Source: a candidate division TA06 bacterium SM23_40
Lineage (GTDB): Bacteria; LJUI01; SM1-40
NCBI GenBank assembly: GCA_001303705.1
Contig: LJUI01000114.1
Span: forward strand, 1 to 8,216
Reading direction: 5' to 3'
Length of the DNA: 8,216 nt
Within the stretch, counting starts at the first letter, position 1. The number at the start of each line of letters is the position of its first letter. Position numbers and translations under genes: made by a program. Shown here in pieces: positions 2,010 to 8,216 of this stretch. Below the pieces are notes generated by a model. The model made no database searches. It had not been told where the DNA came from and worked only from the letters and a program-made list of their open reading frames with translations.

Positions 2010-3023
2010 ATGGCCACACAGGGGACGATCAGGCTCGCTCACGGCAGCGGGGGCAAACTGACGCACGATCTGGTCGAGAGAATGTTTCTGCCCCGGTTCC
2101 GGAATGCAGTCCTCGAGGAACTCGCCGATGCGGCGCGGGTTGCTATCGGGGGATTGCGGCTGGCATTCACTACCGACTCCTATGTCGTGAAGCCCCTCTT
2201 CTTCCCGGGAGGAGACATCGGCCGTCTGGCCGTCTCAGGCACGGTGAACGATCTCGCTGTCGTAGGCGCGAGGCCGCTCTTCGTCTCCTCTGCACTCATC
2301 ATCGAGGAGGGAATCGAGGAGGAGCTGCTTGTGCGTGTGACGGACTCGATGCACGCAGCGGCAGCGGAGGCTGGCGTGGAGATCGTCGCCGGGGATACAA
2401 AAGTCGTGGAGAAGGGTGGGGCTGACGGGCTGTTCATCAACACCTCTGGGCTGGGTGTTATCGATGGTGAGATCGACCTGGGCCCGCATCGCGTCAAGGC
2501 CGGCGATCGCGTCCTTGTCAGCGGGAGCGTGGCCGACCACGGTATTGCAGTCATGGCAGCACGGCAGGAACTCGGACTCGAGCCCCCCATCGAGACTGAC
2601 TGTGCCCCTCTCGGCGGCCTCGTGGCGGACCTGCTCGCGCTGGGACAGGCCATCAGGTTCATGCGAGACCCGACCAGGGGAGGGGTGGCCATGAGCCTTA
2701 ACGAGATGGCGCTCCAGGCGGAGAAGGTGGTAGTCATAGATGAGACAGAGGTGCCGGTGAAGGAGAGTGTACGGAGCGCCTGCGAGCTCCTGGGATTCGA
2801 CCCGCTCTATGTTGCGAATGAGGGGAAGGTCGTCGCCATCGTCGCTGCCGAGGCGGCGGACGAGGCCATCGGAATACTGCGGCAGCATCCTCTGGGGAGA
2901 GACGCTCGCCTTATCGGCGAGGTAGCCGACGGAGAACGACCGCACGTAGTCCTCCGAACCGCGATCGGGGGGAGGCGCATCGTCGACATGCCCGTCGGCG
3001 AACAACTCCCCAGGATCTGCTGA
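2010..3023 (+). CDS. hypE: HypE, carbamoyl dehydratase for hydrogenase cyanide ligands
   Basis: HypE receives a carbamoyl group from HypF on its C-terminal cysteine and dehydrates it with ATP to a thiocyanate, the source of the CN ligands passed to HypCD. The 337-residue product ends PRIC, with the required terminal Cys337. Other PurM/AIRS-type HypE signatures are HGSGGK (11-16), FTTDSYVVKPLFFPGG (53-68), SGTVNDL (76-82), AGDTKVV (127-133), MRDPTRGG (218-225) and YVANEGK (267-273). ATG 2010 is preferred over the TTG 60 nt upstream, which would add a non-family tail encoded by the dyads. AGAGAGG (1994-2000) gives a ribosome site 9 nt before ATG. The hypF partner is not in the window. The gene is separated from hypD by two repeat arrays, which is unusual for a normally compact hypCDE set. 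Confidence 0.97.
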   Translation: MATQGTIRLAHGSGGKLTHDLVERMFLPRFRNAVLEELADAARVAIGGLRLAFTTDSYVVKPLFFPGGDIGRLAVSGTVNDLAVVGARPLFVSSALIIEEGIEEELLVRVTDSMHAAAAEAGVEIVAGDTKVVEKGGADGLFINTSGLGVIDGEIDLGPHRVKAGDRVLVSGSVADHGIAVMAARQELGLEPPIETDCAPLGGLVADLLALGQAIRFMRDPTRGGVAMSLNEMALQAEKVVVIDETEVPVKESVRSACELLGFDPLYVANEGKVVAIVAAEAADEAIGILRQHPLGRDARLIGEVADGERPHVVLRTAIGGRRIVDMPVGEQLPRIC

Positions 3024-3262: not shown

Positions 3263-4171
3263 ATGCCTCTGACTCCGCAGGAGAAGACTATCGTCGAGCG
3301 CCGCCGCGTCCTCTGGATCTGGGGAGTGATCATCCTCGTGGGCGCCCTCGCCGCGCTTGTCGTCGTGCTCGTGGGGGTGATCGCAGTAGGTGGTGTGGGC
3401 CTGGCCGGCTATGCCGGGATGCACATGCTTGAGCAGCCGATAACCTGCACGATCTGCCACAACATGCGTCCGGCCGTTGAGTTGTGGAAGGCCTCGACGC
3501 ACGCGGGGATCATCTGCGCCGAATGTCACAGCGAACCTGGACCTAGGGGTAGGTTCAAGGGCACGGTGCTCGCTCCGATCCGTGAGACGTTCCTCTACGT
3601 GACTGGCAACTACGGGAAGAAGCCGATGATCGCCGATATCCGCGACGAGAGCTGCATGCGCACGCATTGCCACAAGTCGCGACTCCTCCACGGTGAGGTC
3701 TCCTTCAAGGGGGTAGTCTTCGACCATAGCAGGCACTTCGAGTCTCTGTTGGGCGTCAAGCGCCTCCAGTGCGCCAGTTGCCACTCTGACACCGTGGCCG
3801 AAACCCATATGGCGACAACCGGGCAGACATGCTTCATCTGTCATTTGAGGGAGAATGCCATAGCGGACGTGCCGTCGGGGTGTCCTTCATGTCATCGGGC
3901 GCCACCAGAACCGATCGAATTCCAAGGGACCGTCTTCGACCATCAGCACCCCATCGTTCGAGACGATCCGTGTGAGTCCTGCCATGACAACATCTCGCGG
4001 GGCGGGGGGAGTGTGAATTCGGATCTGTGCGTCGAGTGCCATGGAGAGGCGCATGTGGTAGAGCGGATATCGAACTCTGGCTATATCCATCAGCTCCATG
4101 TTGTAGATCACACAGTCAATTGTCTCTATTGTCACGAAGCGGTCACCCACGCGATCGAGAAAGAGTGGTAG
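3263..4171 (+). CDS. Membrane-anchored nonahaem cytochrome c, C-terminally truncated
   Basis: The product is a 302-residue multihaem c-type cytochrome resembling NapC/NirT- and c3-like proteins that pass electrons between the membrane and extracytoplasmic partners. A basic start (ERRR, 12-15) precedes one long hydrophobic segment (about 17-50), probably an uncleaved anchor with the haem domain outside. Haem motifs are CTICH 62, CAECH 85, CMRTHCH 131 (a CX4CH site, as known in class III cytochromes), CASCH 170, CFICH 190, CPSCH 207, CESCH 237, CVECH 256 and CLYCH 287. From 149 on, modules recur: F(K/Q)GxVFDHxxH, then two CXXCH motifs 19-20 residues apart. The third module has only its first haem before TAG 4169-4171, while the expected partner CSLCH lies just beyond in the +1 frame. 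ATG 3263 has GAGGAT at 3250-3255. It may still work as a shorter protein. Partner enzyme unknown. Confidence 0.88.
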   Translation: MPLTPQEKTIVERRRVLWIWGVIILVGALAALVVVLVGVIAVGGVGLAGYAGMHMLEQPITCTICHNMRPAVELWKASTHAGIICAECHSEPGPRGRFKGTVLAPIRETFLYVTGNYGKKPMIADIRDESCMRTHCHKSRLLHGEVSFKGVVFDHSRHFESLLGVKRLQCASCHSDTVAETHMATTGQTCFICHLRENAIADVPSGCPSCHRAPPEPIEFQGTVFDHQHPIVRDDPCESCHDNISRGGGSVNSDLCVECHGEAHVVERISNSGYIHQLHVVDHTVNCLYCHEAVTHAIEKEW

Positions 4172-4398
4172 GTTTCCGTGCTCCCTGTGCCATCAGGCGG
4201 CTGCGCCACCAGGTGGAGGAGAGGATCTACCAGGGGATTGATTCATTGGGACGTGCGCCGGGAGCGAGCCAGTTGCTCGCCATCATCGGGGCGGGTTGTG
4301 AGGCATGTTATGCTGGTGCCCAGGTGGAGCCGGTGGCTGGTCGGGTGTGGAATGCCTGTGATCACGGTGAGCCCGACCGGGCGATTCTCGAAGTCTAG
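4172..4398 (+). pseudogene. Decayed 3' continuation of the multihaem cytochrome
   Basis: Downstream of the cytochrome stop the sequence still reads as cytochrome in shifted frames. Dropping one base in the AAA near 4160 continues the protein as EKSGRFPCSLCHQ, with CSLCH at 4179-4193 and 19 residues after the previous haem cysteine, the spacing of the two earlier modules. A second shift near 4191-4205 gives HQVEERIYQGIDSLGRAP, then GCEACYAG and VWNACDHGEPDRAILEV, ending at TAG 4396-4398. CEACY and NACDHGE resemble CXXCH sites with a lost or displaced histidine. Accumulated shifts plus haem-site damage argue for genuine decay rather than one sequencing error. From 4399 to the promoter at 4528 I see no confident coding. 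A frame-0 DHNHTLDRAW (4511-4540) could be a further remnant or chance. Confidence 0.55.
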
Positions 4399-4527
4399 AG
4401 AGGGATCGATGCCGACAGGTCGCGGTCGGTGCCGACGTGGCCTCTGACATACGGTATCGCCGGCACAGCTCGGCTTGCCCGCGGGCTCTGGGCCTTCGTC
4501 ATTCTTGTCGCGATCATAATCATACGC

Positions 4528-4556
4528 TTGACAGGGCCTGGCGCAGTCTCTATGAT
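4528..4556 (+). promoter_or_regulatory. Near-consensus sigma-70 promoter upstream of the hdr operon
   Basis: TTGACA (4528-4533) and TATGAT (4551-4556) are separated by exactly 17 nt. The -35 is a perfect match and the -10 differs from TATAAT at one base. An AT-rich patch (ATCATAATCATA, 4513-4524) lies just upstream. Transcription would start near 4563. The first well-supported gene downstream is hdrC at 5028, implying a leader of about 465 nt that includes the UbiA-like remnant. No terminator-like hairpin with a T-run was seen between the two. Confidence 0.65.
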
Positions 4557-4589
4557 AGGAGTCCTTGTCCCTGCGGGATAGCGGGATAA

Positions 4590-4709
4590 GTGGGCGAGAT
4601 AGATGCTCCTGCAGGCGAGGAGCTGCTCTTCCGCCCGGATACCGATATGGCGGGCGGGGTGTTCGGGGCAGCGAATGTGGCGGACCTCCTCATCTCGAGA
4701 TGGTCCTGA
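4590..4709 (+). other. Small open frame, 39 codons, function unknown
   Basis: This GTG-initiated frame just downstream of the promoter would encode a 39-residue peptide containing EELLFRPDTDMAGG and ANVADLLISRWS. Its composition looks protein-like rather than random, but I recognise no family and there is no convincing ribosome site (GCGGGATAA precedes the GTG). It could be a leader peptide, a fragment of a decayed gene like its neighbours on both sides, or chance. Confidence 0.2.
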
Positions 4710-4729
4710 GAGATGTGCAGACGGATTAG

Positions 4730-5041
4730 ATGAGAAAAGCGGCTGGACTTGTGCGCGCGGCGAGACCGGCGACGACGCTCGCCACCTTGATCACACCGGG
4801 AGCGTCGGCCTTCCTCGCCGCGGGACAGGTACCTCCCCTGCGGAAGAGAGTTGGCGGCTTCGTGGCGGCAACGGTAATCGCCAGCGCGCGCATCTTCAAC
4901 GATGTGTGCCGCGGCGAGACGGACTGGTTGGGCCGGCGCACGCGGATGCGGTCATTGGCGAGGGACACCCGGGCCGCTCGCCCCGCGCTCATCTGGCTCT
5001 CCAACGAGCAAACCAAGGAGCACTACTGTGGAAATCACTGA
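4730..5041 (+). pseudogene. UbiA-type prenyltransferase, N-terminal remnant
   Basis: This 103-codon frame resembles the first third of UbiA-family membrane prenyltransferases, which attach isoprenoid chains to quinone precursors or other acceptors and are usually near 290 residues. Visible landmarks are RAARPATTLATL (9-20), a hydrophobic stretch GGFVAATVIASA (42-53), NDVCRGETD (56-64) where the family has NDxxDxxxD, and RRTRMRSLARD (68-78) corresponding to the family's RTxxRPLxxG. The middle aspartate of the first metal-binding motif is replaced by Arg60, and the second aspartate motif and remaining helices are absent. The frame loses resemblance after ALIWLS and ends at TGA 5039-5041, 14 nt inside hdrC. 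It is most likely a truncated, inactive gene left when the hdr operon was joined here. It could still be translated as a short upstream frame coupled to hdrC. Confidence 0.5.
5015..5020 (+). promoter_or_regulatory. hdrC: Ribosome binding site deciding the hdrC start
   Basis: AAGGAG lies 7 nt before GTG 5028. It is the only good Shine-Dalgarno in this frame's upstream region and fixes the start at GTG rather than the ATG at 4902, which would add 42 residues read out of frame through the UbiA-like remnant. Confidence 0.8.
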
Positions 5042-5534
5042 ACTCGATCCCACCTTCAAGTTCGATGTGACTCGGGAACCGGGCGGGGAGCAACTCATGC
5101 GCTGCTTCGCCTGCGGCACCTGCACGGCGAGCTGTCCGGTTCGCGAGATCGACGAGAAGTTCAATCCCCGCCGGATAATCCGCATGGTGCTGCTCGGCAT
5201 GCGGGAGGAGGTGTTGTCGAGCCAATTCATCTGGCTCTGCTCCACCTGCTATGCGTGCCAGGAGCGCTGTCCGCAGGACGTGCGGATCACCGAGCTGATG
5301 TCTGCGATAAAGAACCTCGCAGTCAAGGAGGGTCACCTTCCTGCCGCATACAAGATGCAGCTCGAGCTCATCCGGAACATGGGGCGGCTGTACGAAATCG
5401 ATGAGTTCGACAACAAGAAGCGCAGCAAGGCCGGTCTGCCCGAGCTCGAGAGCACAAACGAAGATGTGAAGAAGATATTTGTCATGACCGGTGCCGATCG
5501 TCTGATCGGGGGAGAGGAAGGAGGTGGAGAATGA
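5028..5534 (+). CDS. hdrC: HdrC-type heterodisulfide reductase subunit, two [4Fe-4S]
   Basis: HdrC is the small soluble ferredoxin-like subunit that carries electrons from HdrA to the catalytic HdrB. The 168-residue product has two classical cluster motifs: Cys26-Cys29-Cys32-Cys36 (CFACGTCTASCP) and Cys71-Cys74-Cys77-Cys81 (CSTCYACQERCP). No hydrophobic segment is present, so it is a cytoplasmic HdrC and not a membrane QmoC/HdrE-like fusion. The start is GTG 5028. The C-terminus is charged and glycine-rich (GGEEGGGE), and its end contains the strong ribosome site for hdrB. The stop overlaps the hdrB start (ATGA). The frame is intact. Confidence 0.93.
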   Translation: MEITELDPTFKFDVTREPGGEQLMRCFACGTCTASCPVREIDEKFNPRRIIRMVLLGMREEVLSSQFIWLCSTCYACQERCPQDVRITELMSAIKNLAVKEGHLPAAYKMQLELIRNMGRLYEIDEFDNKKRSKAGLPELESTNEDVKKIFVMTGADRLIGGEEGGGE

Positions 5535-6406
5535 AATACGCCTTCTATCTCGGATGCGCTGCCCCGGTGAGAGGACGACACTACGAGATGTCAACCCGGA
5601 AAATAGCTGAAGGGTTGGGGATCGAGCTCGTCGATATCCCCGAGTTCTCCTGCTGCGGGTTCCCGATCAAGGGGGTCGCTCACGATACGTTCTTCCTGCT
5701 GTCAGCGCGAAATCTCGCCCTTGCAGAGAAGCACGGCCTGAACATTATGACGATCTGCAACTCCTGCACCGGCGTGATGACGGAGGTCAACCATGAGCTG
5801 CGGGAGAACGAGGACCTGAGGAAGAAGACGAACAAAGCACTCGCCGAGTTGGGGTACGAGTATAAGGGCAACGTGGAGGTGAAGCACCTCATACGGGTGC
5901 TGTACGAAGATGTCGGCGTCGAGAAGATCAAGGAGAAGGTGAAGGTTGACGTCGCCGCCTGGAAGCTTGCGCCCCACTATGGATGTCACTTCGCCAAGCC
6001 ATCGGTGGCATACAATCGGTTCGAGGATCCGGAGTACCCTCGTATCCTGAGGGAACTCATGAGCGCAGCCGGAGTTGGCGTGGTCGATCACGATCGGGAC
6101 AAGGCGTGCTGCGGCGGCGCCATCCTGGCGGTCGATGAGAATATCGCCCTTAAGATGGCCGGCAAGAAACTCGAGAGTGTTGCAGGCGCAGATGGTGATG
6201 GGATCTGTCTTCACTGCACGTTCTGCTGTGTGATGTACGACGATAATCAGAGCAAGATCAACCAGGCGATCGGACAGGAGTACGTCATTCCAATCCTCTA
6301 CTATCCGCAGGTTCTTGGTATGGCGATGGGCTATGATCCCAAGGATCTCGGCCTGAAGATGAACCGCGTGAAGACGAAGGAGTTGCTCGCCAGGCTCGAG
6401 TCGTGA
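5531..6406 (+). CDS. hdrB: HdrB-type heterodisulfide reductase subunit, two CCG domains
   Basis: HdrB is the subunit that reduces the disulfide (CoM-S-S-CoB in methanogens; the bacterial substrate is generally unknown) using two noncubane [4Fe-4S] clusters bound by CCG domains. The 291-residue length is normal. The first CCG set is Cys9, Cys41-Cys42, Cys76 and Cys79 (GCAAP, SCCGFP, CNSC). The second is Cys152, Cys193-Cys194 and the pair Cys229/Cys232 (YGCHF, ACCGGA, CTFC). Both sets are complete, so catalysis looks possible. Cys226 and Cys233 flank the last pair, giving C-X2-C-X2-CC. A full AAGGAGGT (5518-5525) precedes ATG 5531, which overlaps hdrC by 4 nt. A CCG protein of a different pathway (e.g. 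a GlpC/LldE type) is less likely because hdrC and hdrA genes flank it. Confidence 0.93.
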   Translation: MKYAFYLGCAAPVRGRHYEMSTRKIAEGLGIELVDIPEFSCCGFPIKGVAHDTFFLLSARNLALAEKHGLNIMTICNSCTGVMTEVNHELRENEDLRKKTNKALAELGYEYKGNVEVKHLIRVLYEDVGVEKIKEKVKVDVAAWKLAPHYGCHFAKPSVAYNRFEDPEYPRILRELMSAAGVGVVDHDRDKACCGGAILAVDENIALKMAGKKLESVAGADGDGICLHCTFCCVMYDDNQSKINQAIGQEYVIPILYYPQVLGMAMGYDPKDLGLKMNRVKTKELLARLES

Positions 6407-6445
6407 TGGGATCGGCATGCAGCCGGAAAAGGTGGAGCGATAGTG

Positions 6446-7798
6446 ATGACGCAGGATAGCAGCGGAAGCGGACGGGTGTTGGTGATCGGTGGAGGCATCG
6501 CAGGGTTGACTTCTGCGCTCCAGCTGGCTCGCAGCGGCCAGGCCGTCGATCTCGTGGAGCGGGACACAGTGCTCGGCGGCCATGCCATGCTCTTCACGTG
6601 TAAGGCGACAGATCGTTGCCAGAAGTGCACTGTCTGCATGGTCAACGACCGCATCAGGGAGATACTGGATGAACCGCTGGTGCGCGTCCGAACCGGACAG
6701 GAAGTAGTCGGCGTCGAACGAGCTGACGGCCGGTTTCAGGTGCGGCTGAAGAGCGCGGGAGCTCCCGTCGATGCCGCGAAGTGTATCGCCTGTGGACTGT
6801 GCACTGAGGAGTGTCCGACGACACCGGAACCCTCCATATCTCTCGCTTCCGATCAGGGGATGCCACGTGTGTACCGGGTGAGTGAAGAGACTTGTCTCGT
6901 CTATCTGGGCAAGGAGTGCGAGCGGTGTGTGGCGGTCTGTCCGACAGAGGCGATTGCCTTCGGCAGAGAGAGGGAGATAGCCGAAGAGACGTACGGCGGG
7001 ATCATCGTCGCGACAGGGTATCGGCCGTTTGCCGCAGAGAGGCTGACGCAATACGGGTACCGGCATTTTCCCGATGTGATCACCGGGCTCGATCTCGAGA
7101 TGCGGCTCCGGCGTGAAGGAAGGCTCACCCGGCCGTCTGACGGCTCGGTGCCCAAGCGGGTGGCATTTATCCAGTGTGTGGGATCGAGAGACGTAAAGCA
7201 CAACCGCTACTGTTCTCGAGTCTGCTGTGCCTACGCCGTACGGTGCGCGAACAAGTTGAGTTATCTGGAGCCCGAGAGTGAGATTGCAATCTTCTATATG
7301 GATCTTCAGGCGTTCGGAAAGGATTTCGCGGGGTGGCGCGACAGGCTGCGAGGCCGCGTCCGTCTCGTGCGGAGCCACCCGGCGTTCATCGAGATGGCCC
7401 CCGAGGGAGGACTGAGGCTGGCCTACGAGTCTGTAGAAACCAACCAGATCGATCGGGAGCCGTTCGATCTCATCGTTCTCTCTGTAGGCCTCTGTCCGGG
7501 CTCCGATACCGCAGGGCTCGCCGAGATGCTGGGCATCGGACTCGATGAAGATGGATTTCTGCTCGCGCGCGCTCGGGAGGCAGGCGGTCGATCCAAAGGA
7601 GAGGGACGAGGGGGTCTGGGGCCGGACGAGACGCTAACGCAGGTCCCGGGTCTCTTTCTCGCCGGGACATGTCAGGGACCGCGCGACATCGCGGGGAGCA
7701 TCGGCCACGCATCAGCCGCGGCCGGGGCGATGTTGCACCACCTCCGGGGTTCACAACTTGTGACGGTCGAGGAACGGGACGACGATGCCAGAGGGTGA
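6446..7798 (+). CDS. hdrA: HdrA-type flavoprotein, short form lacking N- and C-terminal domains
   Basis: HdrA binds FAD and iron-sulfur clusters and is where electron bifurcation or confurcation occurs in Hdr complexes. The product is 450 residues versus about 650 for full methanogen HdrA. It starts directly with the FAD Rossmann motif VIGGGIAG (13-20), so it lacks the N-terminal domain, and it ends after the second FAD segment GLFLAGTCQGPRDIAG (402-417) without the C-terminal ferredoxin domain. An early cysteine cluster is Cys52, 58, 61 and 64. The inserted ferredoxin domain has Cys113-116-119-123 and Cys150-158-161-165. The HdrA-specific set is CVGSRD Cys244 plus Cys256, Cys260 and Cys261. 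Residues 374-398 form a Gly/Arg-rich linker. ATG 6446 is chosen over GTG 6443 because GGTGGAG (6431-6437) sits 8 nt before it. QmoA is a related alternative of similar size. Confidence 0.88.
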   Translation: MTQDSSGSGRVLVIGGGIAGLTSALQLARSGQAVDLVERDTVLGGHAMLFTCKATDRCQKCTVCMVNDRIREILDEPLVRVRTGQEVVGVERADGRFQVRLKSAGAPVDAAKCIACGLCTEECPTTPEPSISLASDQGMPRVYRVSEETCLVYLGKECERCVAVCPTEAIAFGREREIAEETYGGIIVATGYRPFAAERLTQYGYRHFPDVITGLDLEMRLRREGRLTRPSDGSVPKRVAFIQCVGSRDVKHNRYCSRVCCAYAVRCANKLSYLEPESEIAIFYMDLQAFGKDFAGWRDRLRGRVRLVRSHPAFIEMAPEGGLRLAYESVETNQIDREPFDLIVLSVGLCPGSDTAGLAEMLGIGLDEDGFLLARAREAGGRSKGEGRGGLGPDETLTQVPGLFLAGTCQGPRDIAGSIGHASAAAGAMLHHLRGSQLVTVEERDDDARG

Positions 7799-8216
7799 TA
7801 CGAAAACGATAACCGCACTGCTATGTCACTGCAAAGACTCCCTGTCGAGGACCCTCGACTACGAGGAACTCGCTCAGATGCTTCGACAGGAGAAAGATGT
7901 CAAGGAGGTCTCCGTTGTCGCCGGCCTCTGCCGGGAGACGGACCAGGCCTCGGTGAAGACCCTTCTCGAGGGTAAATCCGACTCCTCCGTTCTCGTTCTC
8001 GGGTGCTCGCCCAAACTGCTTGAGCCCTCTTTCCGACAGCTCCTGAGCGAGGTGGGGATCAATCCGCACCTCCTGTCCGTGGTCAACGTGAGAGAGGGGT
8101 GCGTGTGGGTTACGCCCGATCAGGGAGAGGCAAGGGCACGGGCGAGGAGAATGCTCCGCCAGGGCCTCCAGCGGGTGCGGCGCCTGGTGGCGATCGAGCA
8201 GGAGCCGGTCGCGGTG
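7785..8216 (+). CDS. Second HdrA-like protein, N-terminal part (runs off window)
   Basis: Only the first 144 codons are present, with no stop before the window edge. They match the N-terminal domain of full-length HdrA: LCHCKD (Cys14, Cys16), GLCRET (Cys49), VLGCSPKLLEPSFR (Cys74) and NVREGCVWV (Cys106), the ligand-bearing landmarks of that domain, followed by the helical stretch (115-135) that leads toward the FAD domain. This is exactly the domain missing from the preceding gene. ATG 7785 overlaps the preceding gene by 14 nt, with GAGGA at 7769-7773. It may be a full HdrA, a QmoB-like protein with an MvhD domain, or a stand-alone N-terminal half; the rest of the gene would tell. The conserved cysteines suggest it is functional. 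Confidence 0.85.
   Translation, partial: MPEGDTKTITALLCHCKDSLSRTLDYEELAQMLRQEKDVKEVSVVAGLCRETDQASVKTLLEGKSDSSVLVLGCSPKLLEPSFRQLLSEVGINPHLLSVVNVREGCVWVTPDQGEARARARRMLRQGLQRVRRLVAIEQEPVAV

Follow-up and report, generated by a model that had tools for sequence, protein, structure and literature searches.

The results presented here suggest that a gene encoding a twelve-haem cytochrome was truncated by an insertion or deletion, that its last part then decayed, and that the nine-haem head is probably still made. The window, i.e., the whole stretch of 8,216 nucleotides analysed, is a complete contig (C71), one of 189 in a 2.88-Mb assembly, and contains the following gene:

3263-4171, + strand: open reading frame of a nine-haem cytochrome, 302 aa, with an N-terminal membrane anchor and a NapC/NirT-NrfH-like start

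The frame holds 8 CXXCH sites and one CX4CH site (CMRTHCH from residue 131), the latter common to the relatives, and its C-terminus reads CLYCHEAVTHAIEKEW, i.e., ...VTHAIEKEW, followed by the stop.

Relatives were sought first in 59 and then in 386 genomes, and the same protein was found in 43 of the 386, the source genome included. The best matches are 38-39% identical, in collections without another genome of the same phylum. Only two distantly related proteins with haem repeats, neither of them of this kind, came from a second collection of genome contigs, and the viral contigs contained no relative of the cytochrome. The family is widespread; its proteins are membrane-anchored, resemble NrfH/NapC at the N-terminus and have twelve haem sites (11 CXXCH and one CX4CH). 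All 32 aligned relatives run on past the stop found in the window, through haem sites 10 to 12, nearly fixed in spacing, a tryptophan whose spacing is fixed and a final helical part that carries HN..Y. The spacing from haem 9 to haem 10 is 22 residues in 23 of these relatives (range 21-27), and the tryptophan lies 15 residues after the first cysteine of haem 12 in 31 of the 32, hence 11 residues after the haem-12 histidine. Of the matches listed at E <= 1e-25, 55 in all, 47 extend to position 395 or further in a model of 460 positions, whereas the window's protein ends at 293. The seven other short matches end at positions 133-372; one of the seven, in a genome with internal stops, is a fragment ending at 291. 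Homologues ending naturally at EKEW would have spoken against the trimming proposed in the original prediction; no intact protein ending at this point is present among the 55 matches listed from the 386 genomes.

Dodecahaem cytochromes with the NrfH/NapC-like anchor (e.g., L003, L006 and L008) are 33-39% identical to the window's protein and share with it the anchor and the haem order to site 9, including the CX4CH third site. They differ from it in that haem sites 10-12, the tryptophan and the HN..Y helical end, which in the window are not part of the frame closed by the TAG at 4169-4171, are coding sequence. The head is thus a truncated descendant of the dodecahaem family rather than a complete member. 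The family is matched in part by the Pfam models Cytochrom_NNT, Cytochrome_C7 and Cytochrom_c3_2, with no NCBIfam model above its cut-off; the NrfH model TIGR03153 reaches the head at E 1.8e-9 with 37.8 bits, below its cut-off of 134.2. The likeness to the NrfH quinol dehydrogenase (2j7a) lies in the N-terminal anchor and the first haem sites, but NrfH is short, with four haems, and the window's protein is much longer, with nine haem sites. Weak profile similarity to MccA (4rkm) and to NrfA-type nitrite reductases (8bcx, 4wjy) is confined to the C-terminal region of intact relatives, i.e., the part lost from the window's gene, and nothing in the sequence points to catalysis. Literature searches on Hdr-linked or truncated multihaem cytochromes yielded nothing specific. 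One relative (L004, G042:C10) has an open frame of 604 aa with a segment that, judged by eye, resembles a response-regulator receiver before the anchor, and relatives of similar length occur in genomes G320 and G187 (L036, L038).

The lost C-terminal part can still be read in the DNA after the stop, where the following features were recognised:

4151-4171, + strand: departure from the ancestral frame, ending in the TAG at 4169-4171; the relatives have no stop here, and the length shows a net change against the usual 22-residue spacing
4179-4193, + strand: CSLCH, what is left of haem site 10, complete in its motif though in a shifted frame, placed by alignment to the relatives
4194-4215, + strand: second frame change (about 4196-4212), between CSLCHQ and HQVEERIYQG, from the shifted-frame translations
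4228-4311, + strand: YxG...G segment and relic of haem site 11, CEACY, with tyrosine now at the histidine position, placed by alignment to the relatives
4351-4365, + strand: relic of haem site 12, NACDH, with the histidine kept and both cysteines lost, or shifted by small indels, placed by alignment
4396-4398, + strand: TAG where the spacing would place the conserved tryptophan, 11 residues after the haem-12 histidine (cysteine to tryptophan being 15 in 31 of 32 relatives)

Translation from 4140 gives RSPTRSRKSGRFPCSLCHQAAAPP; the frame next to that of the cytochrome gives KSGRFPCSLCHQ; and, after another change of frame, translation from 4141 gives HQVEERIYQGIDSLGRAPGASQLLAIIGAGCEACYAG...NACDHGEPDRAILEV up to a stop. 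Together they match the continuation of the relatives in order, namely haem 10 (CSLCH), YQG...LG, haem 11 (CEACY) and haem 12 (NACDHG). At least two frame changes are needed to follow the tail, and two indels are secure; further disabling changes are the lost histidine, the lost cysteine, the stop at the tryptophan spacing and the missing end. The final helical domain was not recognisable in 4398-5027, where scores of 26-32 fall inside the range of shuffled sequences. In the rest of the genome the lost C-terminus has a match only on the homologous contig C13, discussed below, so that nothing suggests its relocation; nor does the genome contain a second copy of 4160-4728.

The haem tail that the original prediction expected to be exposed by a frame shift past the TAG was accordingly recovered, with every named segment in its place, and alignment of the shifted frames to the multihaem cytochromes of relatives confirmed the order. 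With one base skipped, the first cysteine of CSLCH (4179) falls 19 residues after C287, as had been calculated, but the argument from the spacing of the earlier modules (20 and 19 residues) does not hold: the agreement is coincidental, most relatives having 22. The proposal of an ancestor with at least 12 haems trimmed to nine stands independently of the failed spacing argument, given that the relatives have twelve and the last three are readable in shifted frames.

Could such a tail be read out of ordinary intergenic sequence by chance? The DNA was compared, in an alignment tolerating frame changes, with a profile of the 32 relatives that excluded the window. With its start anchored where the intact gene ends, the alignment scored 47.7, a value reached by none of 1000 dinucleotide shuffles (mean 7.1, sd 6.7, maximum 32.9) and by none of 650 other 270-nt pieces of the window taken from both strands (maximum 40.0). 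Without the anchor the result was weaker, the score of 44.4 (shuffles 29.7, sd 4.8) being reached by 5 of 500 shuffles, and the shifted reading frames have no Pfam match, both of which leave some room for chance. The anchored result is strong and the unanchored one modest; therefore, order and position carry much of the weight. The order of the segments agrees with the relatives, and so does the tryptophan spacing of the TAG at 4396-4398, an extra check outside the anchored score; lower frameshift penalties added only implausible further shifts. We consider chance similarity extremely improbable.

Programmed +1 frameshifting, by which a minor, longer product would be made, was the other outcome envisaged in the original prediction. 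The context of the stop, TGG TAG G, would permit a +1 shift, and a shift at or before the TAG would join haem 9 to CSLCH at 19 residues. However, the shifted frame soon meets a stop past CSLCHQ, so that a second shift would be required to reach the next segment. With haem sites 11 and 12 broken by substitutions and the final domain gone, the shifted frame holds no intact coding sequence, and we give this explanation hardly any credence.

The tail damage could also stem from mistakes in sequencing or in assembling the contig from a metagenome, in which case the true gene would be continuous, and the fact that the window is an entire contig of only 8.2 kb in a 189-contig assembly makes this worth weighing. 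The other genes on the contig bear on this question:

73-315: hypC, intact family match
312-1403: hypD, intact family match
about 2010 to 3023: hypE, intact family match
5028-5534, + strand: hdrC-like gene with a GTG start, from a family match and comparison of cytochrome-hdrC-hdrB neighbourhoods
5531-6406, + strand: hdrB-like gene with two CCG domains, family match
6443-7798, + strand: hdrA-like gene, matching HdrA2 positions 141-557
7785 onward: further open reading frame of which only the start is present, running off the contig and resembling HdrA2 N-terminal positions 3-137

All six named genes match their respective families unbroken, in line with the earlier claim of intact neighbours, and matches to HdrB-like and UbiA proteins elsewhere in the genome are free of internal stops. 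An error would, by contrast, have to account for at least two indels, a lost histidine, a lost cysteine, a stop at the tryptophan and a missing domain within one 250-bp stretch, which we find very improbable. At 6443-8216 the HdrA2-like parts stand in swapped order, with positions 141-557 first and 3-137 after them; the frame from 7785 could be where a second HdrA begins. Between hypD and hypE, a gap of 550 nt contains degenerate tandem repeats (1497-1888) with units of about 12, 20 and 24-25 nt, which occur nowhere else in the genome.

The association of the cytochrome with hdr genes extends beyond the window. In genome G206, hdrC and then hdrB directly follow an intact relative (L074), and on contig C13 of the source genome an intact 20-haem homologue adjoins hdrC and hdrB:

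Contig C13 (L067), 10359-12623 and 13382-14817: second, intact homologue together with its hdrB- and hdrC-like neighbours

This homologue (L002/L067) is 39% identical to the window's protein over residues 59-298 and differs from it in being intact, with a 755-aa stop-to-stop frame, 20 CXXCH sites, a complete tail and a second haem-rich unit. Because the same arrangement is found in L074 and on C13, the cytochrome-hdrC-hdrB neighbourhood is probably old, with hdrC the probable ancestral neighbour of the cytochrome. In the window the two genes are separated by 856 nt of relic and other DNA, a gap that is absent from L074, and which contains a promoter-like site:

4528-4556, + strand: TTGACA-N17-TATGAT, sigma-70-like, with 11 of 12 consensus matches, between the relic and hdrC

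This is a consensus match only, found in a scan in which 0.6 sites would be expected at the lower threshold of 9/12; the site may drive hdrCBA. An open reading frame of 103 aa at 4730-5041 matches the first 70 positions of UbiA prenyltransferases below the threshold (19.8 bits against a cut-off of 34.2). It does not closely resemble the UbiA proteins encoded in this genome and is possibly another gene relic, or chance.

The head has been preserved to a different degree from the tail. Its 302 codons contain neither a stop nor a frame change, and 52 of 58 family-conserved positions are kept, the six departures affecting no cysteine or histidine. By our own tally on the alignment, 9 of 21 conserved positions survive in the tail, 6 of the 21 falling in the missing end (Fisher p = 5e-5 against the head, or 0.013 on the 15 alignable tail positions). 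At the tail's rate about 7 frame-changing indels would be expected in the head and none is seen, but this rests on the two secure indels, both of which uniform placement would put in the tail with probability 0.05, and the indel-rate argument is weak. The contrast in conserved positions indicates that the head, in which every conserved cysteine and histidine is kept, was under selection for longer than the tail, which does not by itself prove present use.

It might nevertheless be that the entire gene is a dying pseudogene, with a head that is also out of use and open only through recent truncation. In mean identity the head diverges furthest of all the sequences compared (0.363 versus 0.383 or more for the others). 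The same genome keeps the intact 20-haem homologue beside hdrC and hdrB, and the DNA now lying between the window's cytochrome and hdrC is apparently non-coding. Yet enough time has passed for two haem sites and the end to vanish from the tail, while the head has kept its open frame, its conserved cysteines and histidines and a coding-like GC content by codon position (0.60/0.44/0.74). On this balance we regard a wholly dying gene as unlikely, and favour truncation with a head that is still made.

Under truncation with a retained head, a frame-changing indel just past haem site 9 (4151-4171) would have caused translation to stop at EKEW, and the DNA past the stop, freed from selection, would then have eroded. 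The second frame shift, the loss of the haem 11 histidine and the haem 12 cysteine, the TAG at the tryptophan and the deletion or erasure of the end would be later changes. The nine-haem head is most likely still made, because its open frame and all conserved cysteines and histidines are kept; once loaded with haem, it would carry electrons between the quinone pool of the membrane and its own chain of haems, a role that we infer from the NrfH/NapC-like anchor and from knowledge of the family. Tentatively, the truncation could even be adaptive, yielding a stable nine-haem form that serves as a shorter conduit decoupled from hdrCBA, which would use their own promoter in the former downstream region; we think this doubtful.

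Finally, the protein is of a known kind and its gene shows ordinary decay, the persistence of the nine-haem head being the only unusual point. The case captures, at a stage that can still be read, the shortening of a multihaem electron wire, with every conserved haem-binding residue of the head kept and the last three sites decaying in order beyond a stop. If the short protein is not functional, this would be ordinary gene decay in a lineage without close relatives in the collections; if it is functional, modular cytochromes can drop terminal modules and yet keep working.
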